DNA from: a virus
Length of the DNA: 64,000 nt
Virus record (IMG/VR): IMGVR_UViG_3300037507_005588
Coordinates: 1-64,000 of that record
Direction: 5' to 3' (one strand)
Shown here: one piece after another, positions 54,490-61,267 of the stretch
Layout: the number at the start of each line of letters is the position of its first letter
How positions within the stretch are numbered: the first letter of the stretch is position 1
Position numbers and translations under genes: made by a program
Notes under the pieces: generated by a model
The model's input: only the letters and a program-made list of their open reading frames with translations
What the model was told of the DNA's origin: nothing
The model's database searches: none

Positions 54490-54605
54490 TTGTAATTGGT
54501 CTAATAGTAATTGTGCAGTTGTTTGCAATTCTAAAACAAATTGAGAAGGGGAACAACTCACCAACAAAACATCCAAAAGGAAATGAATACAATAGAAGAT
54601 ATTGA
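54486..54605 (+). CDS. tiny membrane protein, 39 aa
   Basis: MIVIGLIVIVQLFAILKQIE forms one transmembrane helix, followed by a basic tail (PTKHPKGNEYNRRY). Overlaps the stop of the preceding gene and the start of the next by 4 and 23 nt. Confidence 0.45.
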   Translation: MIVIGLIVIVQLFAILKQIEKGNNSPTKHPKGNEYNRRY

Positions 54606-54867
54606 AAAAGTAGTTAGTGGATTCTTGATGAAGAATCACAACGAACTTGGTTTGGGTGAATTTGATTTTGTCTACAACGAAGAAGTTATGGAACACGTTC
54701 ACAGTATTTGTGTGAGCATTTTGTGTACCAAACATGGTATCGGTTACCCTGGCGGAGGGTTCGTTCAAGCAGTTGTCAACAACGACTTGATGGGAGCTTT
54801 CGGTCGGGCGGACAGTATCAACAAAAAGTACATCGGTCTATACGTAAAACTTTTATACAATTATTAA
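54583..54867 (+). CDS. hypothetical protein, 94 aa
   Basis: Start ATG 54583 (MNTIEDIEKVVSGFLMKNHN). YNEEVMEHVHSICVSILCTK and GYPGGGFVQAVVNNDLMGAF are notable Gly- and Cys-bearing stretches. Ends two bases into the RNase P RNA gene. Unknown. Confidence 0.55.
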   Translation: MNTIEDIEKVVSGFLMKNHNELGLGEFDFVYNEEVMEHVHSICVSILCTKHGIGYPGGGFVQAVVNNDLMGAFGRADSINKKYIGLYVKLLYNY

Positions 54868-55091
54868 CAAAGTTCTGTCGCTCCACGGAGAGGAAACTCA
54901 GGACATCTCAGCTTAAGGTGGGAGATATAAGGATTACAACTTATAATGGTCAGTTATAAGTCCACATCATTATATCATAATTACCACCGAGGATGCAACC
55001 CAAAATAGTCCATGACGGTGAGCTGGTCGGACAAGGTGGGGGCCAAAAGATTAATGACAGATTAAATACAGAATCCTGGTTATACTTTGTT
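54866..55091 (+). ncRNA. rnpB: RNase P RNA (type A-like, reduced)
   Basis: About 226 nt. P1 is AACAAAGT (54866-54873) with ACTTTGTT (55084-55091). The 5' core GGAGAGGAAACTCAGGAC (54887-54904) matches conserved GAGGAAAGUCC-region. The 3' core AGATTAATGACAG (55048-55060) and ACAGAATCCTGG (55068-55079) match AGAUGAAUGAC and ACAGAACCCGG of bacterial RNase P RNA. P4 pairs CAGGA with TCCTG, a covariant change from CCGGG/CCCGG. Cleaves tRNA 5' leaders together with a host protein; tRNA-Arg(ACG) follows after 8 nt. Shorter than the usual 330-400 nt. Confidence 0.85.
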
Positions 55092-55099
55092 GATTAAAC

Positions 55100-55171
55100 G
55101 CCCCCTTAGGCTAATGGATAAACCACTTCACTACGGATGAAGTTTTGGGAGTTCGAATCTCTCAGGGGGTA
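55100..55171 (+). tRNA. tRNA-Arg(ACG)
   Basis: Acceptor GCCCCCT/AGGGGGT, anticodon loop CTACGGA in stem ACTTCA/TGAAGT. Reads CGN after inosine modification. Confidence 0.85.
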
Positions 55172-55183
55172 CTGAAAAAAAGA

Positions 55184-55379: not shown

Positions 55380-55447
55380 AGTAGACCTTCAAAAGGGCCC
55401 TTCCGTCTCTGCGTGAGCGGCTTGCTGGGCCCGGGTCTACCTCTTTT
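55380..55447 (+). ncRNA. compact three-stem RNA candidate with T-run
   Basis: GTAGACC...GGTCTAC closes the element; inside GGGCCC...GGGCCC and then CCGTCTC-TGCGT-GAGCGG form nested stems with small internal loops. CTCTTTTT follows. No tRNA features. Lies between tRNA-fMet and tRNA-Gly. May be a small RNA, a strong terminator, or a processing signal. Confidence 0.5.
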
Positions 55448-60819: not shown

Positions 60820-60855
60820 ATAAAAAACCCCTCCCGAAAGAGGGGTTCTTTTTTT
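60820..60855. terminator. bidirectional rho-independent terminator
   Basis: AACCCCTC/GAGGGGTT stem with CCGAAA loop; T-runs on both sides serve the 60516 gene and the tmRNA. Confidence 0.85.
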
Positions 60856-61267
60856 GGTGGAGGTGGCGGGAATCGAACCCGCGTCTTGCTCAGTCTACCC
60901 ATAAAGGACTACATGCTTAGGTCAGGGTTTTTCACACCCTCCGAACTATTTGGTTTCTATTTTACCATCGTCACCAACAACTGTGGGGTGTTCACTCAAA
61001 TCGGTAGAACACCAAACGTTACCTCCATTCCTTTTTGGGTAGAAACCACACCGTAGGGACTTCTGTTTCCAGGTTATATGTCCATCGACCCATTGTCACT
61101 ATAGCCTTAGGCTACAGTAACTTCCTCAGCTTGGATAAGACCCAAAGCCTCGAGAGTTGCGAAAGTTTCGCCGTTTGATTGTTGCATCCATAGATTAAGG
61201 TGATAGGAAACATCTCACCGCATGCCCCGTATGACTAACTCTGCCAATCAATACCGGTCACCCCCAT
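60855..61267 (-). ncRNA. ssrA: tmRNA with an unusual 21-residue tag
   Basis: Acceptor GGGGGTG pairs with CACCTCC, followed by A and an encoded CCA; T arm CGGG-TTCGATT-CCCG is tRNA-like. The tag frame (61107-61172, minus strand) starts with the GGC resume codon and reads GETFATLEALGLIQAEEVTVA then TAA. It begins GET, as in Bacteroidetes tags, but is about twice as long and ends TVA instead of ALAA. The stop codon sits at the tip of a nine-pair hairpin (ACTGTAGCC/GGCTATAGT). SmpB is not in the window. Rescues stalled ribosomes and adds the tag; whether host ClpXP recognises this C-terminus is open. Confidence 0.9.

Follow-up and report, generated by a model that had tools for sequence, protein, structure and literature searches.

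RNase P RNA is the catalytic RNA that trims tRNAs in nearly all cells, and RNase P is treated as a cellular enzyme borrowed by phages (the tRNAs of T4 are cut by the RNase P of the host). Bacterial type A RNAs (RF00010, e.g. E. coli M1 RNA; 340-420 nt) combine helices P1-P3, P4 with its bulged U, P5, the P6-L17 pseudoknot, P7, P15-P16-P17, the L15 GGU motif (which in bacterial enzymes binds the 3' CCA of the pre-tRNA) and the cores CR-I, CR-IV and CR-V with P18 and a specificity domain (P8-P14) that holds the T-loop site. In a laboratory deletion (Eco CP RPR), the E. coli catalytic domain freed of the specificity domain cleaves whether or not C5 is present; for efficient cleavage it relies on a P6-like pairing, and in this setting it can do without P18 (PMC5839562). 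A comparable natural layout is found in Pyrobaculum, whose archaeal RNase P RNA is of type T, or P by its other name (Lai et al. 2010, as cited in PMC4919922); for this type, passages of PMC5839562 and PMC4919922 describe a catalytic domain with P6, a degenerate specificity domain and no P18. Furthermore, passages of Lui et al. 2021 (PMC8172020) describe diverged chromosomal CPR RNase P RNAs that fall below the Rfam cut-offs, some of them without P12, P13, P14 and P18 and about two-thirds without the CCA-binding UGG; the same passages report megaphages with tRNAs and tmRNA, and name no RNase P RNA in them. In the open-licence literature, we came across no previous description of an RNase P RNA encoded by a phage (earlier reports may exist): the main texts of the huge-phage paper (PMC7162821) and of the cyanophage ncRNA paper (PMC9964418) mention no phage RNase P RNA, and that of the DLP6 paper (PMC5349666) mentions no RNase P RNA.

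The stretch analysed here (64,000 nt of the 89,822-bp IMG/VR record IMGVR_UViG_3300037507_005588; hereafter the window) carries an RNase P RNA gene (rnpB) at about 54864-55093 on the plus strand, which runs from P1 to P1' in roughly 230 nt. We read the window RNA as an RNase P RNA descended from type A and encoded by the phage, with almost all of its specificity domain lost: it shares with type A the elements listed above from P1 to the three cores, and differs from it in its smaller size and in the absence of P9-P14 and P18. The preliminary description had rightly called the RNA much reduced, and its estimate of about 226 nt is here adjusted to the above boundaries; it had also placed the gene 8 nt before tRNA-Arg(ACG), an adjacency that holds with a gap of 6 nt after P1. 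The elements of the locus are as follows (paired percentages are those of 32 aligned phage RNAs, each followed by its shuffled value):

54541-54867, plus strand: ORF of 108 aa, its stop codon falling within the P1 5' strand
54864-54873, plus strand: P1 5' strand, 10 bp (TTAACAAAGT/ACTTTGTTGA) with 55084-55093
54874-54879, plus strand: P2 5' strand, 6 bp with 55056-55061; 85.9% paired, 59.8% shuffled
54881-54890, plus strand: P3 hairpin with C(CACG)G loop; 89.6% paired, 69.2% shuffled
54890-54904, plus strand: CR-I GAGGAAACTCAGGAC, including the P4 5' strand (54895-54903) and its bulged U (54898)
54895-54903/55074-55081, plus strand: P4, 8 bp and bulged U; 99.6% paired, 86.7% shuffled
54904-54907, plus strand: P5 5' strand, partner 54992-54995; 100% paired, 82.6% shuffled
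54909-54913, plus strand: P6 5' strand CAGCT, pseudoknot with L17 AGCTG (55021-55025); 96.9% paired, 84.5% shuffled
54917-54921, plus strand: P7 5' strand, partner 54984-54988; 99.4% paired, 81.6% shuffled
54924-54976, plus strand: AU-rich hairpin at the P8 position, sole remnant of the specificity domain (no P9-P14)
54984-54988, plus strand: P7 3' strand, pairing with 54917-54921
54992-54998, plus strand: P5 3' strand GATG and J5/15 (GCAA), placed by alignment and pairing
54999-55041, plus strand: P15-L15-P16-P17 region, its L17 holding the P6 partner AGCTG (55021-55025)
54999-55001/55039-55041, plus strand: P15; 89.6% paired, 67.9% shuffled
55008-55011/55029-55032, plus strand: P16; 87.5% paired, 65.3% shuffled
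55014-55016/55026-55028, plus strand: P17; 100% paired, 59.6% shuffled
55035-55037, plus strand: L15 GGU motif, invariant in 32/32 aligned RNAs
55048-55061, plus strand: CR-IV AGATTAATG (CR-IV proper 55048-55056) and P2 3' strand
55068-55082, plus strand: CR-V ACAGAATCCTGGTTA (core ACAGAATCCTGG, 55068-55079) and P4 3' strand (55074-55081)
55084-55093, plus strand: P1 3' strand, ending 6 nt before tRNA-Arg
55100-55172, plus strand: tRNA-Arg(ACG), direct downstream neighbour and presumed cis substrate

The hand-built structure of the window RNA has zero mismatches in the frame formed by P1 to P7, P15, P16 and P17, and its catalytic domain is complete. The features general to RNase P RNAs (a P4 with bulged U, formed by CR-I and CR-V, and the CR-IV AGANNAAUG and CR-V ACAGAA cores within a P1/P2/P3 frame) are present, as are two that characterise type A, namely the P6 pseudoknot (from the P5-P7 junction to L17) accompanied by P16/P17, and the GGU of L15. 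A loss of this GGU was considered and is ruled out by the P15/L15 layout, in which the motif is kept. The type A specificity domain (P8-P14 with the T-loop site) is absent, the interval 54922-54983 holding only one hairpin, inside P7; P18 is absent as well (a few unpaired bases link P15 to CR-IV), and some kin (L113, L174, L254 and DLP6) have a hairpin at its site. Since two type A features are missing and the Rfam score lies under the cut-off, we file the RNA as a phage variant and not as a standard type A RNA. The parts kept and lost (P6 kept, P18 gone) are the same as in Eco CP RPR, with the difference that the latter is a laboratory construct while the phage RNA is natural and under selection. 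As for type T, the phage RNA differs from it in having bacterial-type sequence, in being carried by phages and in the single bacterial RnpA expected to serve it (versus several archaeal proteins); the likeness, which is one of layout, looks convergent.

The preliminary description had based its identification on conserved cores, a matching P1 and a covarying P4, and had proposed a covariance-model search as a check. All three cores were found (GAGGAAACTCAGGAC, AGATTAATG and ACAGAATCCTGG), the P1 pairing AACAAAGT/ACTTTGTT is there and extends to 10 bp, and P4 pairs at 8/8 positions around the bulged U and covaries across relatives. The search with RF00010 was significant: the full model (positions 1-367) matches 54863-55098 (+) and scores 42.0 bits, which corresponds to E=1.4e-11 when 851 nt are searched and to E=3.4e-13 for the whole record. 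Because this score is below the curated gathering score of 100, a default Rfam run on the window misses the RNA and reports tRNAs and tmRNA only. A second covariance model (R1) was built from 12 phage RNAs, excluding the window RNA and its five closest kin (its training member L101 is a cousin more distant than the excluded five); its sole match in the 64-kb window is 54890-55082 (+), with 117.8 bits and an E-value, rough as in all such models, of 6.9e-24. The folding energy by itself is not significant (z=-1.2), and the evidence for the identity of the RNA is homology and covariation, not folding energy.

Covariation was assessed in a MAFFT alignment of the 32 phage RNAs made without structural information. 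Across 41 pairs (P2-P7 and P15-P17), 94.7% of 1312 cells are paired, and changes on both sides were seen in 28/41 pairs, those of P4 and of the type A P6 pseudoknot among them. Every helix exceeds all 500 partner shuffles, a test inflated by kinship among the RNAs, as well as every version slid by 1-3 columns; the slid controls, together with the variety of compensating pairs, make chance pairing untenable. When P4 was taken from 94 RNAs by their core motifs, 29 distinct versions were obtained (e.g. CAGGA/TCCTG, CGGGA/TCCCG and CTGGA/TCCAG), 94.8% paired versus 77.0 +- 1.8% after shuffling. P4 reads AAC-U-CAGGA/UCCUG-GUU in the window, AGU-U-CGCGA/UCGCG-GCU in Stenotrophomonas phage DLP6 and AGU-U-CGACG/CGUCG-GCU in LR756511.1, and P6 occurs in fully paired forms such as CTGCT/AGCAG, CAGCT/AGCTG, TAGCT/AGCTA, CCGCT/AGCGG and CTGTT/AACAG. 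The catalytic-domain cores are invariant across the aligned phage RNAs.

The location of the gene on a phage, as claimed beforehand, is borne out by the remainder of the record, which encodes beyond the window a terminase large subunit (Pfam terminase match, E=1.8e-15), a portal, a head maturation protease and a major head protein, and in which no ribosomal protein S8 was detected; by these phage genes, the record reads as that of a T4-like phage. One window protein has a Por_Secre_tail domain, a sorting domain of type IX secretion, which suggests a host within the Bacteroidota. rnpB is embedded in a same-strand array of genes and tRNAs, and the same RNA lies in the same surroundings in the independent contigs L180 (97% identity over 7 kb), L175 and L143. 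In L215/L233 the RNA is 89.5-90% identical, as against only 73-80% for the coding sequence near it in L233. A tmRNA was detected at 60855-61265 (-), on the strand opposite to most tRNAs (RF00023, 83 bits; ARAGORN gives no call), and the phage thus carries tRNAs, tmRNA and RNase P RNA together. Between tRNA-Met and tRNA-Gly, a strong, unassigned hairpin at 55381-55440 (GUAGACC...GGGUCUAC, -30.4 kcal/mol, z=-2.96) may be a structured RNA or what is left of a tRNA.

RNase P RNA had been described beforehand as rarely found on phage genomes, a view overturned by an IMG/VR scan that ran to completion with a strict pattern (AGATNAATGN{4,34}ACAGAATCCNGNNTA) and returned 89 contigs. A core-motif parse of all loci gave 95 with cores, from which 83 distinct RNAs remain after the removal of four weak ones, one truncated one and duplicates; about 80 other phage-derived sequences hold similar copies, or still smaller ones, as a rule adjacent to tRNA genes of their own. 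The contigs bearing them reach 476-482 kb (L072 and L257) and, with a second pattern, 527 kb (L417). Two phage records of the GenBank set carry an RNase P RNA. In the cultured phage DLP6 the core lies at KU682439.2:105815-106006 (R1 E=3.3e-11), beside tRNA-Arg(CCG), within a locus (L317 3810-4053) that corresponds to about 105.78-106.03 kb of KU682439.2; the record has no annotated feature for it, and it is absent from the Rfam output even at E<1. The second is LR756511.1, a 595-kb uncultured huge phage (R1 E=2.0e-21). The apparent rarity of phage RNase P RNAs reflects annotation and not occurrence.

These RNAs range in size down to about 153 nt, the smallest being L186 (153 nt, R1 E=1e-12) and L157 (154 nt, in a 328-kb contig, R1 E=5e-11). 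The RNAs of L157, L091, L186, L236 and L309, at about 153-154 nt (the sizes measured for L157 and L186), appear to be devoid of any specificity domain and are each followed directly on the 3' side by a tRNA gene; to our knowledge they are among the smallest bacterial-type RNase P RNAs. At the other extreme, L096, L260, L267, L274, L279 and L280 carry insertions of about 90-150 nt where P8 would lie, and some of these include letters that resemble a T arm (GGGTTCGAATCCC); a tRNA nested in the long inserts of L096, L267 and L280 was considered, and Rfam finds none inside. Two long canonical RNAs were found in ‘virus’ records of 372 kb and 446 kb that gave no terminase match and may be host sequence. 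A terminase was recovered in 13 of 28 rnpB-bearing records (in two of the 13 below the Pfam cut-off), and ribosomal protein S8 in 0/28.

The pattern of the window subclass was further run on 84,980 species genomes (257 Gb) and on IMG/VR, yielding eight stretches in the former, of which R1 confirms a single one as RNase P RNA, and 22 in the latter. The single true match (L405, QIFK01000185.1) lies on a 32,682-bp contig of a Nitrosospira MAG; this contig has the same length and RNase P RNA score as the IMG/VR virus contig L418, and is probably a phage that binning has placed in a bacterial genome. Given that this lone match resembles a virus contig, against 22 stretches in IMG/VR, the subclass is essentially viral. 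The same distribution bears on the possibility that the window RNA is a degraded, recently captured and functionless host rnpB, or host DNA brought in by faulty assembly or binning of the contig. The gene is indeed sporadic among relatives: four phages with related terminases and full tRNA arrays (G094, G096, G098 and G100) gave no significant RF00010 or R1 match (the best R1 match being in G098, 20 bits, E=0.035), which makes rnpB an accessory gene, dispensable for phage tRNA processing. Decay also occurs, as in one kin group (L419, 1975-2800; also L416 and L420) in which a 211-codon ORF for a GIY-YIG/NUMOD3 homing endonuclease splits the L15/P16 region and CR-V reads ACAGGA instead of ACAGAA, and whose RNA may be decayed or two-piece. 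Against this stand the recurrence of gene and flanks in three independent contigs, the phage head genes of the record, the conservation of the RNA above that of its neighbours and the near-absence of the subclass from species genomes, and we regard such an origin as very improbable.

We inventoried the tRNA genes around the 83 distinct RNAs. A tRNA lies within 100 nt on either side in 47/83 and within 100 nt downstream in 37/83, in the latter case always on the same strand (37/37); in 35/37 the first base of the downstream tRNA lies 23-33 nt past ACAGAA, immediately behind P1. An encoded CCA is missing in 21 of the 22 plus-strand tRNAs listed, and since GGU is retained nonetheless (which sets the phage RNAs apart from most CPR RNAs), the addition of CCA presumably precedes cleavage or is independent of it. 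The loss of the T-loop-binding part could make a poor tRNA enzyme, and one may conceive of an active RNase P with relaxed specificity whose main role is other than the trimming of tRNA 5' ends (with, e.g., mRNA of the phage, RNA of the host or precursors of tmRNA as its targets). Small hairpins do serve as substrates for the catalytic domain from E. coli (PMC5839562), and a tmRNA is present in the window; the tight coupling to tRNA genes nevertheless points to tRNAs, and we deem a main role of this other kind unlikely.

With regard to the protein partner, no RnpA (PF00825) was recognised with the Pfam model in the record or in the 27 other rnpB-bearing records, most of which may be fragments and which include the 595-kb phage and, as a complete genome, DLP6; the same search was positive in 10 bacterial control genomes. 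Since no phage RnpA is recognisable, the RnpA of the host is the likely partner, and the dependence on it that the preliminary description had thought probable is a natural reading. The same absence, which would put the phage RNA in competition for the host protein, together with the loss of the specificity domain, would also suit a decoy that titrates host RnpA or host substrates, lowers host RNase P and so aids the shut-down of host translation with no need of catalysis. Such a decoy would not require the active-site elements P4 with its bulged U, CR-I, CR-IV, CR-V and GGU to stay invariant or covarying in 32 RNAs, beyond what RnpA binding needs, nor would it account for RNAs sitting in phage tRNA arrays that themselves require RNase P; we hold it to be even less probable than a main role outside tRNA processing, albeit not as remote as a decayed or misplaced host gene.

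The explanation that we favour, and judge highly probable, is that of a reduced type A RNA which works with host RnpA and processes the tRNAs of the phage as well as its own 3' end. The phage RNA would probably be made as part of the phage tRNA transcript, and host RnpA would most likely bind it to form a hybrid holoenzyme, which would remove the 5' leaders of phage tRNAs and possibly that of the phage tmRNA. Because the adjacent tRNA starts right after P1, cleavage at its 5' end would at the same time leave the RNase P RNA with its mature 3' terminus. While the identity, structure, covariation and phage location of the RNA, the lack of a recognisable RnpA and the tight same-strand coupling to tRNAs are directly supported, we infer expression, activity, RnpA binding, self-maturation and a benefit to the phage from the sequences. 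The gene may be carried for any of several reasons, an advantage once the host is shut off being one of them. On a broader scale, we consider it reasonably likely that large phages hold one or more catalytic-domain RNase P RNA lineages of their own, about 153-230 nt long and mostly located within or alongside tRNA arrays, and that these RNAs form hybrids with host RnpA, have a changed substrate choice and mature their own 3' ends.

As default Rfam searches miss these RNAs (that of DLP6 even at E<1), many phage genomes probably contain them without annotation. An RNase P RNA encoded widely by viruses alters the view of RNase P as a cellular enzyme that phages merely borrow. Moreover, the phage RNAs would represent natural bacterial-type ribozymes cut down to the catalytic domain, and offer small RNAs for structural work. 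They also open to direct testing which portion of the RNA a living cell requires, whether a viral RNA can capture the RnpA of the host, and why phages carry full sets of tRNAs.
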